DNA of 64,000 nucleotides from a virus. The notes under the pieces are model-generated. The model did no database searches. It saw only the letters and a list, made by a program, of their open reading frames with translations, and was not told the origin of the DNA. Below, in pieces: positions 27,278-58,650 of the stretch (positions within the stretch are counted from its first letter, which is position 1; each line of letters starts with the position of its first letter). The stretch lies in the IMG/VR virus record IMGVR_UViG_3300025598_000027, positions 34,765 through 98,764 of that record; one strand, given 5' to 3'. Position numbers and translations under genes: made by a program.

Positions 27278-29860
27278 TTACACCTGCAACGCTAAACATC
27301 TCATATCTGCGGCTCTTGGAATAATATAAGATGTCTCTGAGACAGGAATAATCTTAATAGCAAAAGTCTTAAAGCTATCATAAACGACATCAGTATTAGA
27401 TACGTATCTTACTATGTTGTTATTATTTGCGAACAAGAAAGCTCCAGTCTGGTCTTCAATTCCAGGAATAATACCAATATCAGCATAAGCACTAACAGTA
27501 GTTGAGATTGATGGGTTGGAAGTTAGGACTAGAGTAGTATTATTCGCAACATAATTTACCATACGAACAATAAAAGTATTAGCAGCAGTATTATACAGAT
27601 AGATATAATTACCGTTTGCGATACCTGCTGTCGTAGAAACTGTTACGTTAGCTGAAGAAGTATTGCATTGTGCATTATTTGAAGCCAAGAAAACACTAGT
27701 CGGAAAATCATATTCAAGTTCAACAAAATCATCTAGATTTGTCCCAGAACTTAATAAAGCAGGCGAAGATATTTCTACCATTCTAGACCAGTATATATTA
27801 TTAAAAGCTGAAGAATCTTGGTTGTGTTGAATTTTAGCATAAACTTTAAAATCAGTTGTTGCTGGACGATATGCTGCTATGAAACATTTAAGGTCTTCGG
27901 CGTCTTGTTTATCAGCAAGAACTACGTTTTTAGAAATATATCTTGATCTTGGATAAATTAGATTAGTATTATATATTTCTCCGTATTTTTGTGAAGAATT
28001 AACATAAGCATTAATAGTTGAATTTCCTGTAACATAGATACTATAACCAGCCTGAAATGGACCAGAAGTATTTGAAATATACATAACACTACTGTTTCCA
28101 TAATGGAAATTACCTGTTACTGTAACTGAACCATTAGATTGAGAAACAGGTTGTCCTGAATTGTTTCTAGAAACATAAAAACTATTAGTGGCATTTGAAA
28201 TAGAAAGAACATATCCGTAAGTTTGCCATTTTTGGAAAGTATAATTTCTAGTAAAAGTAGAGTAATTAGAAATACTATCAATATATGGAGAAAATTTATT
28301 GTTTGCGGTAGTAAATTCTGCAGAAATTAAAGTTGTGTAAGAGCCACCATTATTGATAAGTTCGTCTGATCTAGCTTTTACAGCTCTTTCAACATCGTAA
28401 AATTCTTTTTCTGAATTATTAACCACAGGAATAGGAGATGAATCTGAAGTATTATTTTTTTGAATACCTGTTAGATAATAATTGATATTTGTGGAAAAAG
28501 AAGTCATATCAGCAAATTGTGGAATAATAGCATTATAAGATCTATTATAATTAGAATTTATGATTGCTGAAGATTGAGAAGATTTTCCTATTAGGTATTT
28601 TCCATAAGAGTTGGAGAAATTAGAAGAAGCGTTTGCCGTAGATCCCCAAATATAAAAATTTGTTGACATATACTTATTTGATATGTTTTGAGCAACAGAA
28701 CCACTAAATCTACCATTAAGAGCTAAACCATCACCTCTTACTTGCCCTAAAAGTGAATTGGTATCGCTGAATGATATATTTCCTGCAAGAGAAAAAGCTG
28801 TAGAATTAATAACAGTATTAACAATACCAACCTGCATTGATGAACGATTGTTCGTACCGATATATATTGATTGGTTTGCATAAAAAATATTTGCAGTTCC
28901 GTTCCCAGTAAACGGAACTATGATAGTAGAATTTGATTGAGCTATAACATTTTGACTATAAGATGTCACATTAACAGTAGCTCCTGAGGCTCCGCCCTGA
29001 ACATATAGAGTCGTGTTTCCAGAAGAAGCAACAAAAGCTCCAACAGTATTTGTTACAAGCAAAGAAGAACCGTTTGCATAATACAAGACACCTGTTGCTA
29101 AATTGGCGCTTCCATTACTCTGGTAAACAGTTTCACCAACTGAGAAAGGAATAGTATTTGTAGAATCGATTCTCAATTTAGCCAAATTGTAATTTGTATC
29201 AGATATAAAAAGCAATTCATTTGGAGTAAAAGAACCAATAAGATTATTGTACTGCATATTTTCTTCATCAAACATTGTATATACTGCAGTACCAGAACCA
29301 CCACTGACAGTAAAATCAGCTGTGTAAATTGTAAATTTAATATCTTCAGATTGAATTGCTGTAAATTGTATATCGTTCGAAGATAAGAAAAGTGTTCCTG
29401 TATCATTATTTGTAGTAATTGGGGTGTTTAATGATACATCGGTCTTACCCAATTCTGCTGTCCAAACAGTATAATCAGGGTTACCACCAATCGGAATAAT
29501 AACGAATGCATATGATGTTTGTGATTTTAAGAATATTGGAGTATCAAATTCAAATCTTGTAGGGACTGTGGCATCAGCAGATGCTGTAATAATTTTACTG
29601 CCAGCTGATATGGTCGTTGATGTGCCATTCTTAAGATATGTAATATCAGAAGCATACGTATCTGATATTTGTAACACTTTTTGGCCGTTCGGTAAACGAT
29701 CAGTTGTTGGGTTACCATTATCAGTGGTTCTGATCTGCAATTCAACACCATAATTTGAGCTCACAGATGCAAAATAGATATCAACTGCAGTTAATACTAC
29801 TCCATCGGTTCCACCAACGGGTTCATTAATATAGAAAGTTTGCGCAATTGGTTTAGTCAT
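27278..29860 (-). CDS. Baseplate/tail structural protein, possible separated C-terminal part of the DUF4815 protein
   Basis: An 860-residue protein starting MTKPIAQTFYINEPVGGTDG and continuing VVLTAVDIYFASV...ELQIRTTDNGNP. This 'AQ(S/T)F...G.(F/V)LT.VD.(Y/F)F...LQIR' phrase usually follows the DUF4815 part within one long polypeptide in T4-like phages. Here it is its own gene, 12 bases after the DUF4815-Hint gene. Residues about 235-310 contain the repeat FSVGETVYQSNG...VTNTVGAF...GASGATVNVTSY, shared with gp8 of this phage. It has its own late-promoter-like AATAAATAC. Structural role is well supported; the split is an inference. Confidence 0.78.
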   Translation of the reverse strand: MTKPIAQTFYINEPVGGTDGVVLTAVDIYFASVSSNYGVELQIRTTDNGNPTTDRLPNGQKVLQISDTYASDITYLKNGTSTTISAGSKIITASADATVPTRFEFDTPIFLKSQTSYAFVIIPIGGNPDYTVWTAELGKTDVSLNTPITTNNDTGTLFLSSNDIQFTAIQSEDIKFTIYTADFTVSGGSGTAVYTMFDEENMQYNNLIGSFTPNELLFISDTNYNLAKLRIDSTNTIPFSVGETVYQSNGSANLATGVLYYANGSSLLVTNTVGAFVASSGNTTLYVQGGASGATVNVTSYSQNVIAQSNSTIIVPFTGNGTANIFYANQSIYIGTNNRSSMQVGIVNTVINSTAFSLAGNISFSDTNSLLGQVRGDGLALNGRFSGSVAQNISNKYMSTNFYIWGSTANASSNFSNSYGKYLIGKSSQSSAIINSNYNRSYNAIIPQFADMTSFSTNINYYLTGIQKNNTSDSSPIPVVNNSEKEFYDVERAVKARSDELINNGGSYTTLISAEFTTANNKFSPYIDSISNYSTFTRNYTFQKWQTYGYVLSISNATNSFYVSRNNSGQPVSQSNGSVTVTGNFHYGNSSVMYISNTSGPFQAGYSIYVTGNSTINAYVNSSQKYGEIYNTNLIYPRSRYISKNVVLADKQDAEDLKCFIAAYRPATTDFKVYAKIQHNQDSSAFNNIYWSRMVEISSPALLSSGTNLDDFVELEYDFPTSVFLASNNAQCNTSSANVTVSTTAGIANGNYIYLYNTAANTFIVRMVNYVANNTTLVLTSNPSISTTVSAYADIGIIPGIEDQTGAFLFANNNNIVRYVSNTDVVYDSFKTFAIKIIPVSETSYIIPRAADMRCLALQV

Positions 29861-29872
29861 TTTTACCCCTAA

Positions 29873-32800
29873 TTACTTCTTTGTATTTATTCTATAATCA
29901 TCAAGAGTCAATTGAATTCCTTTTGACTCCCATTTATCATAATCAAAGTCATCTTCTCTAGGCCATCCAGTTACAGCGTAACCATTAACAAAGTAAGTAT
30001 GACTCCCGCCAACAACAAAATTGTAGAGCTTTGTTTCTGGTGGCATATCGTATACCAATATTTCTTCTACGACTTTAGAAGAATCTACAGTCTTAAGTTC
30101 AACACCAAGTTCTAATTGATGGACTCTATCTTTATTTAATCCTTTATTGATTAAAATATCAATTTCATCGTTTTCTAGAATTACGGGATAAGAACCACCC
30201 CATTCTTTATAAATTGCATCTACCTCAAAAGAATAGAATTTTTTATCTTTAGAAACGTGAGGATGATCCCCAGCAGTATCATGTTCTGAATTGATTTTAT
30301 ACATCGATCTATTACCAAGCACAACATTATCTTTACCAAGAATTATATTGTGTTCGCCAAAAGCTCCTAGGACATATTCTCCTACTTTTACATCTTCAAT
30401 TACTTTTACAGATCCATCTGCCATTGTTATTAAACTTCCGGCCAAGAAACAAGAACATCCGTCACAGTTATGAACAACAAATCCCTCAACAACATAAGTA
30501 TGGTTACCATCAAGGGTAAGATCATAAACAACATAATCATTATCTTTTATTTCTGTGATAACATCTAAATCTTTATAAGATAGGCTGCTCATTGAAATTT
30601 CATTGTGTTCATAAATGCCCATCATTACAAATGAATCGTTCTCATTTAGAGGGGTTGTTTTGTTTTCGCCAGTTAGGTAAACTCTGACATCTAAATTGTT
30701 GTCAAAAACTCTTTGTGGATTAAATGTTTTCCAACCATTGATAGTAAGGAACAGATGGTCATCAGTGGCAAACGCAAAACCATTAAATCCTTTCATCGGT
30801 CTATCATTTACCGTTGTGGTTTTTACGTTTACAACTTTATTTATTTGACCACCATAACCGACAACTAAATCTCCGATTTCGACATCTTTAATTTTTTTCA
30901 GAGATTTATCAGCCATCAGTACAGAAGCTTCTGGATCAAAACAACATCCACATCCACCACCACCACAGTTATGGACAACAAATTCTTCAACAATATACGA
31001 TTGATCGCCATCAAGATGTAAATCATGAACGACAAAGTCAGGATTAAAGATATGATCTTCAATTTCTAATTCAGAATATGGAACACTCGTTACTTTTCCA
31101 TCTTTAAATAAAGTAAGAATATCTTTGTCATTAAGAGGAGTATAACGGTTTTCTCCTTCTAAGAAAACAGCATTTTCTCTGTTGTTTATAATTAATCTAT
31201 CAGGTCTCCAAGTTTTCCAGCCATTATTGGTTAAGAACAGATGGTCATCGGTAGCAAAGAAATCATATCCTTTGATTTTTTTCATCATACGGTCTTGAAC
31301 AGTTGTTGATTTTGTTCCTGTAACTGTATTAACATTACCTGTGGAACCTATAACTTGTTCGCCTTCTAAAATATCTGAAATCTTTTTCCAAGACCCATCA
31401 GCCATAAGAACTTTCGTATCTGGATCAAAACAACAACCACCGCCGCCATCATAACTATTTCCATCAGAAGCAGCAGGAATACTATCTCCGTAAGGATTAT
31501 ATGGAGGCTCTGGTGGTGCTGGAGCAGGTATAACAACAACACTAGAATTACTTGTTACTACAGTTTGAGTTATAGTCTGTTGATCTGTAACTTGTTGAAC
31601 CGAAACAACAGCTTCTCTTGCATTTAATATAGAAGATCCCTTTGCTATACTTATGTTTGAACCGTAAAAATTACCTGTAGCTTTTGTTGTTATAGCATCT
31701 ATACCTGTTACTGGGTTAGGAACATCATAAAGATTCATTTCTAGAGTCGTTGATCTAAAAGTATTTGGCGGAATTATTAATTGTGCATATAAATTTCCAT
31801 TACTATCAACAATCAATGGATCGCCTAAATTTCCTGACGGAACATAAGAACTATTAGCTGGCCCAAGATAATGATTCACGTCTATATTGTTTATGAAACC
31901 ATAGACTCTACTTCCTGGTTTTAATCCATGAGCTATCACAGTTACTGCAATAGATTTTACATAAGGTAATGTTGAAACATCTGTTACGAATGTTCCCACA
32001 TTATATTGATTTGTGCTAGTAGTAACAGCAAGTTGTGTGCCAGCACGCTGTTGTTGAGTGTTAGTAGTAGTTGCTGTTTGTGTTGAGGTAGTGTTGATAA
32101 TATTTCCATAAGAATCTGTAACAGAACTATAATCAGTTCCAGCTATCTTAGAATCAGTCGCTGAACTTGTTGTTTGCCAATTACCCCATTGTGTACCATA
32201 TGCAGCAGAAATATTAACAAAATTAGAAGCAAGATCAATATTATTAACAACGTCTGGGCTCTTAGTAAGATCTGGTTGTGTATCCCCAGGAGGAATGAAA
32301 TTTATTTCGCCAGACCAAACATATATATTACCTTCAATACAATTTCTATATTTACTTGCATAATTTTGAGAAATATATTGTGTTTCTGTATAATTTAAAA
32401 GAACAGCATTACCTTTTTTTACAGTGTTTGTGCTTAAATCTTGGCTATATTTCATAGGTCTACGGAACTGATCAAAAAATGGTCTCAATTCAGACTTAAC
32501 AGTATCAATAGCTATATTATAATTTGGATCTAGAGTGTTACCTATGTCATGGCCTCTAAAAGGATCGACAAGAATACCATTTTGGAATCTGTTTTGACCT
32601 GTCGCGCTCGAGCGCACAAGAGTATTTTTGGCTTGTGTTTCTAACAAAGAGAGAGAAGTATAATATTCCAGATTATCAATTTTATTAGAAAGAACACCAA
32701 TATCTTTCATGGTGTATCTTTTAATCTGAGTAATTGAATTTGTTATTGCATAATCATATCTTTTAGCATCATTGGCTTCTGGGGTTGCTAATGATGGATA

Positions 32801-35626
32801 TGGCGGAACGGTAATAATCCCAAGAGTCATCGCCCCAGGTTGATCTACAGGAGGAATAGGAGAATTTGATGGATTACCTTCTACGATAATAAAATCACCA
32901 TTTGTTTTAATCACAGCTTTATCAATTCTTGACAAATAATGTTGAATATCAGATTCAAAATTTTGATTTGGTGTAGGAAGATAAGTCCCTGAGGAAGAAT
33001 GTTTAGAAGAAAGACTAAATGTTAATGTTCCTGATGGATTTGTAGTAGCAGTTGATGCAAAATTTGAAGAATTTGCCGCAGGATTTGCTGTGTTTGCCGC
33101 GAAAGGTCTAAAATCAACACAGTCTCTTAAATCAAAAATAGAACCATCAGTTGCTGTATATTGAGGAATAGCAGCAGTCTGAATTGCTGTTGTATTTGCA
33201 GTATTAGCATTGTCTATAGGATAAGAGTTTGCAGTAAAGAAACCTTTACCTGACGATTGATCATAAGTAAACACTTGCATATCAACATAAATGCGAGTAT
33301 TTGCATCTAAATTAGCAGAAATAGGAGTAATCGTTGCGAGATCGTAATAATTATCTCTCTGGCCATTGTCAAATTTAAAAGCAGATGATAGATTAATACC
33401 AGAGTTAGAATATGTTCCTTCGTTTAGATAAATCGCATTAATCTTATAAACATCTGGGAAACCAAGAGAATATGGGCCATTAGTTGTAGCAGAATGACTT
33501 GCGCAATTTATTTGAACGATAACATTCTTTTTAATTTGTTTTTTGATCGCTACAGTAGAAGAACGAAGAACGTCATAATAGATCTTGGCGTTGAACGATG
33601 CAGATAAAGTCTCATTTAGAGTAAAAGTCGCAGTTGTTCCGCTAATAACAACTGATCTATTTCCTCTAGTAAAGTCGATAGGAACTCCAGCTGGGAATGC
33701 TTTTGCAAATGAGCCAGAACCTGATACTGAACCGATTGTATTCAGAGAAGTATTATTAGCAACGAATGTTACTAGGAAATTAGAGCCACCAATACTGATA
33801 TAATCGCCTGGAACAAAATGAGATAGGAAAGCAGCATCAGAAGAACCAGTTACTGTGTTTCCAGATGTTGATACTGTACCAGTATAGTTAGAAGTATATC
33901 CTGATACTGTTGGGACTACTAAAAATTCTGTAGTCTGAGCAGGAGAAAGAGTGCCAGAAACATTAAAAGATTCTGTTGCAGTACCGTCAGCAGAACTTAA
34001 AGTGAAAGACATCGCTCCACCAGAAAGAGATGGAACGCCGAACGATGATGTTTTCTTATCGCGATAAACATACTGTGTGTTATTGAAACCGTTTTCTTTC
34101 AGCGCTTTCTGACCAAAAGGATAAATCATGTTGTTAAACTGGGCGCTCTGAATCTTAGAAATATTCGCATTAACAGTAGAATCATATGTCTGAATAACGT
34201 CAGCAACACCAACAACTGCAGAAGATTGATAGTTGATGATACTCTTAACAGCGCTGAAATTTTTACCTGGATTCATCTGCACATCAAATAGATATGCTGT
34301 ATAGATATCTGAACCACTGCCGATATTACCAGAACTGAACATAAATCCACGAAGATATGCTGTTCCGATTCTAGTAGAGCTAGAATATCCAGTGCTTAAC
34401 AAAGTGCCACTAGTAACAGCTGTTTTTGCAACGCTGTGTAATTCTACTTGGTATAATTGATCAGTATTAAATTCACCACAGAAATTATTAACATTGATAT
34501 AATAACCATAATTTGCGCTAACAACAACATTTTTTACAGTATCGTAATCTGTTGATCTTCTAAGGTTTATTTTATTGTTGTTGACATATTGTACTCTATA
34601 TCCTTCAACATATCCAAGACCAGCAGAAGAAACAAGATTTACATATGTAGAATTTAAAGCATCATTGGCAGCTTTTGCTTCTGTAGAGAGAACAAAAGGA
34701 TAAACAACATAATTACCATTCGTTTCATATGTTCTCTGTGCAATTTGTGCACCAAGTAGAGCATATTGTGGATCATTTTTGATAGAAACGGGTTTACCGC
34801 TTTTAAAATCGCACAAAGAAAAGAAAGAAGAAGTGTTAGATATGTTATTTGCATATCTAGTTACGAGAGTAGGAATTAATTGTAAACGGTGTGCTCCTGG
34901 AGCTGCATAGTTTGGCGAACCAGCTGCGTTATCATAAAGAGAAGAATCAGCTTCTGGTGTAATGATATTTTCAGTAGCATCAAAACCAACAGAGATACCA
35001 TCTGGCATATTATCATATTTTGAAACAATTAATGTCTGAGGCTGAACGCTAATAAAGAAACCTTTTTTATAGATGGTTCCGGCTGTAGTCGTAAAGGCAT
35101 ATCCAACGCCTGTTGAATTGGTTACAGTCGCAACAGTAAGGTTACCAACAGCCACGTTAGCCTGTGTAGTAACAACAAGATTATCGTTGTTAGAGAATGC
35201 TGTATATGTTATACCATTATTTGTTACTGAATTGATGTATTTTACATAAAGAGTGTTAAGATCAGGATCTTGTGTTATAAAACCTGCTACAGTATTATGA
35301 ACGATAGCTCTTAAACCAAATCCATTAGTAATTACTTTATCTTGGAAATCTGTAATAGTAAATGCGGCGCCATTAGCATATGTATCGTTAATTTTTACGT
35401 AATTATACTTATCATCAAAAGTAAATGCACAACCTTCTGTGACAGAACCTTCTTTAAAAATATTACGCCCAAATTTATCAATTTGATCTTGTAATATTGT
35501 CTGCATCTGATTAAGTTCGCGAGCCTGAACAGCAACAGATGGGCGGTAAAGAACACGATAAAAATTCTTATTTACATCGTAGTCATCAAAGTAAGGCGAG
35601 CGGGATAGATCTGTTTGAAGAGCCAT
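29873..35626 (-). CDS. DUF4815-like tail protein with three C-terminal Hint (intein-like) domains
   Basis: A 1917-residue protein. The N-terminus (MALQTDLSRSPYFDDYDVNK, RPSVAVQARELNQMQTILQD) is typical of DUF4815 structural proteins of T4-like phages, followed by beta-rich modules to about residue 1350. A Pro-rich linker (PAPAPPEPPYNPYG) leads to three consecutive Hint domains: 1399-1553, 1562-1720 and 1726-1887. The first two have intein-type ends: N-terminal Cys, TDDH block, final His-Asn followed by Cys. The third keeps the N-terminal Cys (CFLAGSLITMADG) but ends VTG instead of HN. The protein ends with a 30-residue tail (WPREDDFDYDKW...). It sits after gp8 in the baseplate row. Whether it splices or cleaves is inferred. 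Confidence 0.88.
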   Translation of the reverse strand: MALQTDLSRSPYFDDYDVNKNFYRVLYRPSVAVQARELNQMQTILQDQIDKFGRNIFKEGSVTEGCAFTFDDKYNYVKINDTYANGAAFTITDFQDKVITNGFGLRAIVHNTVAGFITQDPDLNTLYVKYINSVTNNGITYTAFSNNDNLVVTTQANVAVGNLTVATVTNSTGVGYAFTTTAGTIYKKGFFISVQPQTLIVSKYDNMPDGISVGFDATENIITPEADSSLYDNAAGSPNYAAPGAHRLQLIPTLVTRYANNISNTSSFFSLCDFKSGKPVSIKNDPQYALLGAQIAQRTYETNGNYVVYPFVLSTEAKAANDALNSTYVNLVSSAGLGYVEGYRVQYVNNNKINLRRSTDYDTVKNVVVSANYGYYINVNNFCGEFNTDQLYQVELHSVAKTAVTSGTLLSTGYSSSTRIGTAYLRGFMFSSGNIGSGSDIYTAYLFDVQMNPGKNFSAVKSIINYQSSAVVGVADVIQTYDSTVNANISKIQSAQFNNMIYPFGQKALKENGFNNTQYVYRDKKTSSFGVPSLSGGAMSFTLSSADGTATESFNVSGTLSPAQTTEFLVVPTVSGYTSNYTGTVSTSGNTVTGSSDAAFLSHFVPGDYISIGGSNFLVTFVANNTSLNTIGSVSGSGSFAKAFPAGVPIDFTRGNRSVVISGTTATFTLNETLSASFNAKIYYDVLRSSTVAIKKQIKKNVIVQINCASHSATTNGPYSLGFPDVYKINAIYLNEGTYSNSGINLSSAFKFDNGQRDNYYDLATITPISANLDANTRIYVDMQVFTYDQSSGKGFFTANSYPIDNANTANTTAIQTAAIPQYTATDGSIFDLRDCVDFRPFAANTANPAANSSNFASTATTNPSGTLTFSLSSKHSSSGTYLPTPNQNFESDIQHYLSRIDKAVIKTNGDFIIVEGNPSNSPIPPVDQPGAMTLGIITVPPYPSLATPEANDAKRYDYAITNSITQIKRYTMKDIGVLSNKIDNLEYYTSLSLLETQAKNTLVRSSATGQNRFQNGILVDPFRGHDIGNTLDPNYNIAIDTVKSELRPFFDQFRRPMKYSQDLSTNTVKKGNAVLLNYTETQYISQNYASKYRNCIEGNIYVWSGEINFIPPGDTQPDLTKSPDVVNNIDLASNFVNISAAYGTQWGNWQTTSSATDSKIAGTDYSSVTDSYGNIINTTSTQTATTTNTQQQRAGTQLAVTTSTNQYNVGTFVTDVSTLPYVKSIAVTVIAHGLKPGSRVYGFINNIDVNHYLGPANSSYVPSGNLGDPLIVDSNGNLYAQLIIPPNTFRSTTLEMNLYDVPNPVTGIDAITTKATGNFYGSNISIAKGSSILNAREAVVSVQQVTDQQTITQTVVTSNSSVVVIPAPAPPEPPYNPYGDSIPAASDGNSYDGGGGCCFDPDTKVLMADGSWKKISDILEGEQVIGSTGNVNTVTGTKSTTVQDRMMKKIKGYDFFATDDHLFLTNNGWKTWRPDRLIINNRENAVFLEGENRYTPLNDKDILTLFKDGKVTSVPYSELEIEDHIFNPDFVVHDLHLDGDQSYIVEEFVVHNCGGGGCGCCFDPEASVLMADKSLKKIKDVEIGDLVVGYGGQINKVVNVKTTTVNDRPMKGFNGFAFATDDHLFLTINGWKTFNPQRVFDNNLDVRVYLTGENKTTPLNENDSFVMMGIYEHNEISMSSLSYKDLDVITEIKDNDYVVYDLTLDGNHTYVVEGFVVHNCDGCSCFLAGSLITMADGSVKVIEDVKVGEYVLGAFGEHNIILGKDNVVLGNRSMYKINSEHDTAGDHPHVSKDKKFYSFEVDAIYKEWGGSYPVILENDEIDILINKGLNKDRVHQLELGVELKTVDSSKVVEEILVYDMPPETKLYNFVVGGSHTYFVNGYAVTGWPREDDFDYDKWESKGIQLTLDDYRINTKK
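29883..29891 (-). promoter_or_regulatory. T4-like late promoter (AATAAATAC)
   Basis: AATAAATAC on the minus strand, 23 bases before the ATG at 29860, overlapping the last codons of the Hint-containing gene. A ribosome site (TTAGGGG) follows. It gives the 860-residue protein its own late transcript. Confidence 0.5.
29966..30451 (-). other. Hint domain 3 (degenerate at its C-terminal end)
   Basis: Residues 1726-1887 of the tail protein: CFLAGSLITMADGSVKVIED at the N-terminus, GDHPHV (H1788) as block B with the usual Thr displaced by one position, and HTYFVNGYAVTG at the end. The final His-Asn and following Cys are absent, so Asn cyclisation cannot occur, while the N-terminal thioester chemistry could still work. 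Similar solitary Hint domains end tail proteins in other T4-like phages, so this is probably the ancestral one. Confidence 0.8.
30467..30943 (-). other. Hint domain 2 (mini-intein-like)
   Basis: Residues 1562-1720: CFDPEASVLMADKSLKKIKD start, T1621-D-D-H1624 block, HTYVVEGFVVHN end, then Cys1721. It has all terminal residues for protein splicing and no homing endonuclease (159 residues). Clearly paralogous to Hint domain 1. Confidence 0.85.
30968..31432 (-). other. Hint domain 1 (mini-intein-like)
   Basis: Residues 1399-1553: CFDPDTKVLMADGSWKKISD start, T1459-D-D-H1462 block, SYIVEEFVVHN end, then Cys1554. 155 residues without an endonuclease. Flanks are Gly/Cys-rich (GGGGC before, CGGGGCGC after). 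Terminal residues fit splicing. Confidence 0.85.
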
Positions 35627-57387: not shown

Positions 57388-57464
57388 TGGCGATCTCTGC
57401 TGGATTCGAACCAGCGACCCACAGCTTAGAAGGCTGTTGCTCTATCCTGCTGAGCTAAGAGACC
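57388..57464 (-). tRNA. tRNA-Arg (anticodon TCT)
   Basis: Minus-strand cloverleaf: acceptor GGTCTCT/AGAGATC, D arm GCTC/GAGC, anticodon loop CTTCTAA (anticodon TCT reading AGA/AGG), T arm GCTGG-TTCGAAT-CCAGC, encoded CCA. 77 bases. AGA is a codon favoured by AT-rich phage genes. Confidence 0.93.
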
Positions 57465-57841: not shown

Positions 57842-58297
57842 ATGGTTATTTATCACAAACATCACATAATTCCTAAACACGCTGGTGGATCGGACGATCC
57901 ATCTAATATTGTTCTTTTAACTGTAGAAGAGCACGCAGAAGCGCACAAAAAATTATGGGAACAACATGGTAATGAATACGATAGAATTGCTTGGCTTGGT
58001 TTATCTAAAATGATAGATAAAGAAAAAATTATATCGTTAACCATGTCGGAAAATGGTAAAAGAAATTCTTGGCATATGAATAAATTACCTAAAAATAAAG
58101 AACAACAAAAAAATAAAATATTAAATATGTGGAAAATGCCTGGAATGAAAGAACATTTAATAGAAAAAAGAAAAGAACAAAGCCGAAATGGTAAAAATCC
58201 AATGCAAGGAAAACAACAAAAAAAGGTATGTTGTTTGAATTGTAAAAAAATAATTTCAGTTAATGGATTAGTATTACATCAACGAAGTTGTTATTGA
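57842..58297 (+). CDS. HNH homing-type endonuclease
   Basis: The ATG at 57842 follows AGAAAGGAA; upstream in-frame starts (57821, 57788) lack such a site. The 151-residue protein has the HNH core H7-H8...N22...H31/H35 (YHKHHIIPKHAGGSDDPSNI, LTVEEHAEAHKKLWEQHG), a helical middle rich in Lys (KNKEQQKNKILNMWKMPGM), and a C-terminal zinc-like knot C131-x2-C134...H146-x3-C150. It is more AT-rich than its neighbours and stands alone on the plus strand among leftward genes and RNA genes, as expected for a mobile endonuclease. Cleavage site unknown. Confidence 0.85.
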   Translation: MVIYHKHHIIPKHAGGSDDPSNIVLLTVEEHAEAHKKLWEQHGNEYDRIAWLGLSKMIDKEKIISLTMSENGKRNSWHMNKLPKNKEQQKNKILNMWKMPGMKEHLIEKRKEQSRNGKNPMQGKQQKKVCCLNCKKIISVNGLVLHQRSCY

Positions 58298-58298
58298 C

Positions 58299-58332
58299 GG
58301 TAGTTTTGTTCTGTTTCCAAGCCAAAACTACC
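58299..58332. repeat. Inverted repeat (10 bp stem) between converging HNH and tmRNA genes
   Basis: GGTAGTTTTG paired with CAAAACTACC, 14-base loop, starting one base after the HNH stop. It may be a terminator or 3' stabiliser for the HNH transcript, or a helix at the 3' end of the tmRNA precursor on the minus strand. No T run follows on either side. Confidence 0.55.
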
Positions 58333-58613
58333 AAAAGCTCATGCTTAGGCAGCTAGTGCCATAGCGATAGGTGCATTATCGTTTGCATCTATGACGTTTG
58401 CTATGATCTCAGTAATACCTTTATCACACCTGTCGATCCTATTTCGCCCCCAGCAAAGATACATGATGACGATTTGCCAGAACGGAGCTGTACGTTCTTT
58501 TTGATGGCATCCTTACACCTTAATTGGTAACAGCACCATGTATCTATGGTGGAGGCGTCGGGTACCGCCCCCGAGTCCAGTGTGCTTATGCCGTATAACG
58601 TCAACGACCATCG
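58333..58613 (-). ncRNA. ssrA: Phage-encoded tmRNA, circularly permuted (two-piece, alphaproteobacterial type)
   Basis: Reading leftward, the acceptor part comes first: T-arm-like TCGGG-(7)-CCCGA at 58574-58558, acceptor strand CGCCTCC, then A and encoded CCA ending at 58547. After a spacer of 95 bases the other acceptor strand GGGGGCG begins at 58451 and pairs with CGCCTCC over seven positions (one G-T). Next come AAATAGGATCGACA (D-loop-like, as in tmRNA), helix strand GTGTG matching CACAC upstream of the T arm, and the tag frame at 58386-58345: ANDNAPIAMALAA then TAA. The order is that of permuted genes, processed into two pieces. It rescues stalled ribosomes by adding the tag. The T loop (GGCGGTA) is atypical. 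The exact 5' and 3' ends are estimates. Confidence 0.92.
58345..58386 (-). other. tmRNA tag reading frame (ANDNAPIAMALAA)
   Basis: Thirteen sense codons starting at the resume codon GCA and ending TAA. With the alanine carried by the tmRNA the added tag would be A-ANDNAPIAMALAA. The hydrophobic ALAA end is the signal read by ClpXP-type proteases; AND at the start is the usual opening. Confidence 0.9.
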
Positions 58614-58618
58614 CATAT

Positions 58619-58626
58619 TATTTATA
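58619..58626 (-). promoter_or_regulatory. T4 late promoter TATAAATA (tmRNA)
   Basis: Perfect TATAAATA on the minus strand, about 45 bases upstream of the tmRNA T arm, so the tmRNA would be made late in infection. It is read away from the small gene at 58651-58767. Confidence 0.6.
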
Positions 58627-58650
58627 GCCTACATTGGGTAAAAAGTCAAG

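Follow-up and report, generated by a model that had tools for sequence, protein, structure and literature searches.

Three Hint domains in a row close a baseplate-region tail protein encoded in the window, the whole 64,000-nucleotide stretch of viral DNA analysed here, and the first two (D1 and D2) are probably endonuclease-free class-1-type mini-inteins, removed by splicing so that only a short Cys/Gly-rich stretch remains ahead of the third (D3). The array lies where the two halves of one ancestral DUF4815 protein meet, a site that is occupied by Hint domains in many related phages, and it is mainly in this junction that the interest of the finding lies.

The Hint array and its host gene

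The minus-strand ORF 29873-35626 encodes 1917 aa. It matches Pfam DUF4815 with 179 bits (cut-off 30) and phrog_358 with an E value of 7.7e-241 (ORF residues 1-1258, profile 1-1240), and baseplate wedge genes of the gp6 and gp8 types are found directly upstream. Pfam Hom_end_hint recognizes three stretches of the ORF (81.9 bits, cut-off 32.1), while PT-HINT (PF07591) reaches 26.6 bits, under its cut-off of 27.7, and Intein_splicing 20.4 bits, below its cut-off of 35.8. The earlier note had described three Hints in a row closing a tail protein, and the ORF, its length and its residues are as it gave them, in agreement with Pfam. Its coordinates locate the array correctly, except that the boundary at 31435 takes in Cys1398, residue 1399 being encoded by 31430-31432. 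Three other assemblies carry the same array with 100% identity, which excludes an assembly accident. The extein order is GGGGC (1398) / D1 / CGGGGCGC / D2 / CDGCS / D3, and the parts, read on the minus strand, are as follows.

31487..35626, minus: N-half of the DUF4815/phrog_358 tail protein, the N-extein host, residues 1-1380 (Pfam DUF4815, phrog_358, wedge genes upstream)
31433..31486, minus: linker ending ...SDGNSYDGGGGC, residues 1381-1398, of which the last is Cys(-1) of D1 (sequence)
30968..31432, minus: Hint D1, putative mini-intein, residues 1399-1553, with Cys1, TDDH, block-F Asp and His-Asn
30944..30967, minus: 8-aa CGGGGCGC, residues 1554-1561, the C-extein of D1 and N-extein of D2 (sequence)
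30467..30943, minus: Hint D2, putative mini-intein, residues 1562-1720, with the same catalytic residues as D1
30452..30466, minus: 5-aa CDGCS, residues 1721-1725, the C-extein of D2 and N-side of D3 (sequence)
29966..30451, minus: Hint D3, residues 1726-1887, with Cys1 and block-F Asn, without His-Asn
29876..29965, minus: conserved C-terminal tail of D3-type domains, WPREDDFDYDKWESKGIQLTLDDYRINTKK, residues 1888-1917 (alignment; mostly ordered in the model)
29861..29875, minus: stop codon of the Hint ORF, AGGGG RBS-like stretch and 12-nt gap before the next start (sequence)
27278..29860, minus: C-half of the same ancestral protein, a separate 860-aa ORF beginning MTKPIAQTF... (phrog_358, junction alignment)

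One junction with and without Hints

Positions 1-1240 of the phrog_358 profile match the Hint ORF and positions 1422-2020 the next ORF, whose start lies no more than 2 residues from the extein +1 position of relatives in the junction alignment. The earlier note had overlooked both that the N-half and this next ORF come from one ancestral protein and that Hints recur at the site. In the isolate Rhizobium phage RHph_I1_18 (L008), the two halves are fused in one ORF without a Hint. In L109, L110, L115, L116, L117, L118, L120, L122 and L211, a single ORF, at most 2232 aa long, comprises the N-half, a Hint with HN/Cys and a C-terminal part; homology of this part to the C-half is direct in L109, L110, L115, L118 and L120, and follows from very similar flanks in L116, L117, L122 and L211. 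Contig ends interrupt the corresponding ORFs of L114, L119 and L218. Junction inteins are thus located exactly between the halves of the DUF4815 protein in at least nine viral contigs besides the window, and the HN/Cys Hints of these relatives are, judged by sequence, mini-inteins at one fixed junction. An intein-free host protein exists for the clade relatives (L109, L110 and L115 compared with L008), while the window's C-half is a separate ORF. L043 resembles the window in having one HN/Cys Hint and a separate C-half ORF, and in Caulobacter phage Cr30 the gene is split earlier in the protein than in the window, without a Hint.

The window's N-half belongs to the same family as the proteins annotated VrlC or hypothetical tail protein in Cr30, RHph_I1_18 and Pelagibacter phage HTVC008M, one member of which has solved structures (PDB 9euf and others); the proteins of Cr30 and RHph_I1_18 carry no Hint, unlike the window's. 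No paper on Hint domains in DUF4815/VrlC proteins was found in the searchable literature, which took in few subscription journals.

Splicing-type features of D1 and D2

Both D1 and D2 begin with Cys1 (C1399 and C1562), contain TDDH (the TxxH of block B) and the block-F Asp, and end with His-Asn followed by Cys. As paralogues with the full set of splicing residues and without an endonuclease, which is what had been claimed for them, they retain all these residues at 49-51% identity over 155-159 aa. The NCBI intein models detect one end of each only: D1 alone passes the N-terminal model TIGR01445 (29.4 bits, cut-off 24.5), and D2 alone the C-terminal model TIGR01443 (30.7 bits, cut-off 15.6). 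In an alignment of 12 D1-type domains, which share 46-62% identity with D1, the 7 splicing residues all fall within the 29 invariant of 156 columns, for which the chance with 7 random columns is about 4e-6. Loss of Cys, His or Asn in close relatives, set beforehand as the observation that would count against splicing, was seen nowhere in the D1/D2 clade.

The Hint fold was assigned to D1 by an AlphaFold2 model (pLDDT 95.9) and to D2 by homology. In Foldseek, the best PDB match of the D1 model is BIL2 of BUBL1 from Tetrahymena, followed by the gp41-1, Ssp DnaB and Mtu RecA inteins, with E values from 3e-8 to 1e-6. D1 and D2 resemble these class-1 mini-inteins in Cys1, TxxH, block-F Asp and His-Asn/Cys, as does D1 in its predicted fold; they differ in that the host is a virion baseplate-region protein, that they stand in tandem with exteins of 8 and 5 aa, and that the second half of the host has a gene of its own. 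With A-type BIL domains they share the Hint fold and the C-terminal His-Asn, but such domains have no +1 nucleophile, whereas the +1 residue is Cys in both D1 and D2. Splicing competence, as proposed earlier for the two domains, finds good support in their sequence, their conservation, the predicted fold of D1 and the relatives in which a Hint of this kind interrupts one conserved protein.

Cleaving-type Hints at the same junction

The HN/Lys Hints of related phages match the A-type BIL kind. HN/Lys or HN/Arg Hints lie between the halves within one ORF in L028, L047 and L131 (one each), L030 (two) and L142 (three), and one such Hint ends a split gene in L033, L124, L128, L130, L132, L134, L135, L137 and L139. 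The block-F Asp is present in 16/19 HN/C/S/T Hints versus 0/52 HN/K/R Hints (raw p 3e-13), a link between this Asp and the +1 nucleophile that is not significant once kinship is counted, with only 2-5 independent pairs in the tree; since switches are so few, it is used as support only. The pattern fits one splicing type and one cleaving type. HNK-stop was also observed as the exact end of many phage Hint proteins (L046, L054, L088, L133, L149, L163, L164), conserved though Asn cleavage there would free a single lysine; L223 ends in HNC-stop and L169 in HNT-stop.

BIL domains without a +1 nucleophile yield mostly cleaved products (PMC7664689, PMC7765530), and many relatives carry at the same junction the cleaving signature, HN/Lys/Arg without block-F Asp. 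D1 and D2 might likewise be BIL-like autocleavage domains that cut at one end or at both, release the N-half and are lost with no ligation, the more so as the window's C-half is no longer in need of joining. This reading is unlikely, if still to be reckoned with: D1 and D2 combine Cys+1 with the block-F Asp, unlike all 52 HN/K/R Hints, and they group with the single-ORF junction inteins. Two features count against splicing. With exteins so short and a Cys at -1, cleavage may be more favourable than splicing, and the C-extein here amounts to no more than 8 or 5 aa followed by another Hint, which leaves no evident selection for ligating a functional C-extein any longer.

Tandem arrays and the origin of D1 and D2

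Among 106 distinct Hint proteins fetched, at least two adjacent full-length Hints are present in 13, and three adjacent Hints in 3 (the window, L042 and L142); the proteins were gathered by similarity searches, so these counts are not population rates. A tandem triple had been considered unknown, which holds for the searched literature, but the triples of L142 and L042, with HN/Lys ends, indicate that it is not unique. Among the arrays found, only the window's has HN/Cys members.

In the Hint tree, built by a quick method with SH-aLRT as the only support, a clade with support 99 unites 13 Hints, all HN/Cys: D1, D2, E1 (another Hint of the same genome, see below), L015 and the junction inteins. 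Within it, the sister of D1 is the junction intein of L109 (support 92). D1 is therefore probably in its ancestral place, and the family appears to have moved among virion genes without an endonuclease. D2 is evidently not a recent copy of D1. Only 6 matches to the D1/D2 clade, weak and mostly partial, were obtained in cellular genomes, so the clade looks phage-specific. Against named phages, tblastn of the Hint region returned only Providencia phage PSTNGR1 (D3-type, E 1e-5), and searches with the Hints of D2, D3, L030 and L115 returned other inteins (terminases, helicases etc.), with no DUF4815 gene among the matches listed.

Several other Hint proteins were observed in these searches. L015:8001-8480 is a D1-clade HN/Cys mini-intein, by sequence type, mid-way in a 1510-aa phage structural protein, with DGGGGC before it; a weak, tape-measure-like match to its extein is present in Ochrobactrum phage vB_OspP_OH, and no close homologue without the intein was found among isolates. 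A family of phage proteins of ~740-800 aa (L054, L058, L060, L073, L077, L094) has two C-terminal tandem Hints, the first with HN/F/R/Y and the last with HN/K at or beside the end. HN/Cys Hints also lie inside apparent cysteine motifs, in L227:8068-10395 (SRT/Hint/CPQC) and in the radical-SAM-like protein of L228:8803-10254 (KCPW/Hint/CFYVSS).

Other Hints of the same genome

The 98,764-base viral record (G000) holds five Hints, D1, D2, D3 and two outside the window, the latter also found at L004:6461-8274.

G000:C1:32830-33915, minus: E1, Hint ending a collagen-like fibre
G000:C1:32102-32842, minus: E3, the next gene, a Hint-fold protein starting MGFFAGS

E1 ends VVHN/CGGDVGG...GGGG, that is, HN/Cys and then a 27-aa Gly-rich end. 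E3 has neither Cys1 nor HN, and E3-like proteins are also present in L187 and L188. Contigs L004-L006 were considered as an independent 55% relative and rejected, being the same virus (100% identity); E1 and E3 thus belong to this genome and are not outside evidence. A frameshift joining E1 to E3 was likewise rejected, as E3 has its own AAGGAAGG and ATG. Elsewhere in the window, ARAGORN predicts a tmRNA at 58254-58640 on the minus strand, with the tag ANDNAPIAMALAA, near a tRNA-Arg at 57388-57464.

The C-half has its own start, and in E3 the same genome contains a Hint fold without Cys1 and HN, of a kind kept in other viruses. D1 and D2 could accordingly be regarded as relics, in which splicing became unselected after the gene split and which persist as beta domains of the virion, inert or structural. 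This seems improbable, since decay would be expected to remove some of the catalytic residues, which are all intact in D1, D2 and E1 at ~50% mutual divergence.

D3, the C-terminal cap

D3 has Cys1 and ends ...YAVTG without His-Asn, as the earlier note recorded of its N-terminal Cys and VTG end, and it passes neither NCBI intein model. Lacking the C-terminal His-Asn, it would be capable of N-terminal thioester chemistry at most and not of splicing by the standard route. In the tree it falls in a distinct group that lacks HN and whose members cap tail proteins at the C-terminus, collagen-like ones among others; in L023, another virus, a Hint(HN/Lys) is paired with a D3-type Hint after it. The alignment reveals a conserved tail, W-x-R-x-DDFDY, after D3-type Hints. 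In the D3 model (pLDDT 94.6) the tail is ordered for the most part; the model's matches are to BIL2, BIL and inteins, with a weaker one to Hedgehog (1at0, E 2.2e-4).

Cys1 in 11/11 D3-type rows, no HN in 11/11 and a post-Hint tail that is conserved and largely ordered reproduce the layout of the Hedgehog Hog domain. D3 with its tail could be Hedgehog-like, passing a Cys1 thioester to an outside nucleophile and so linking the tail protein to a partner or small molecule; attachment to a partner, or cleavage, had been raised for D3 in the earlier note. Such a linkage would be compatible with splicing of D1 and D2. The odds are rather long, however: the block-B His, found in 9/11 rows, is gone in L023 and L026, no nucleophile, partner or ligand is known, and the fold match to Hedgehog is weaker than that to BIL2.

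Proposed course of splicing

From the residues, the clade, the homologous site, the split gene and the predicted fold, we infer that D1 and D2 likely splice out in the order and to the product described here. The junction between the DUF4815 halves would be the usual seat of the D1/D2 intein family. In the window virus the second half would have become its own gene, D1 staying at the end of the first half, where D2, a second member of the family, and D3, a cap type of other phage fibres, joined it. Cys1 would attack the peptide bond of the preceding Cys, the acyl group would pass to Cys+1, and Asn would cyclise. D1 and D2 would then leave, with GGGGC-CGGGGCGC-CDGCS joined ahead of D3, the Cys/Gly-rich product that the earlier note predicted and that follows from the sequence. 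D3 might then remain as a structural cap or self-cleave by hydrolysis. That splicing builds a Cys/Gly-rich metal-binding or disulfide knot while a D3 thioester attaches the tail covalently to a partner is very improbable, and no description of such a Hedgehog-like attachment step for phage virions was found in the searchable literature.

Significance of the junction

Ciliate BUBL polyubiquitin-like loci, the subject of Dassa et al. 2004 as cited in PMC8616854, reportedly encode several Hints per polypeptide. Ubiquitin-like domains lie between the Hints in BUBL (Tetrahymena BIL2), whereas the window's Hints are nearly back to back. What is new is the apparent seat of the D1/D2 clade inside one ORF, between the halves of the same tail protein. 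Tandem splicing-type mini-inteins with exteins of 8 and 5 residues would offer a test of minimal extein length. In conclusion, one tail-protein junction has across phages no Hint, a single mini-intein of the splicing type, one to three Hints of the cleaving type, or a gene split, and with these natural variants at one site, the transition from intein to cleaving Hint and a use in virion maturation become directly testable.
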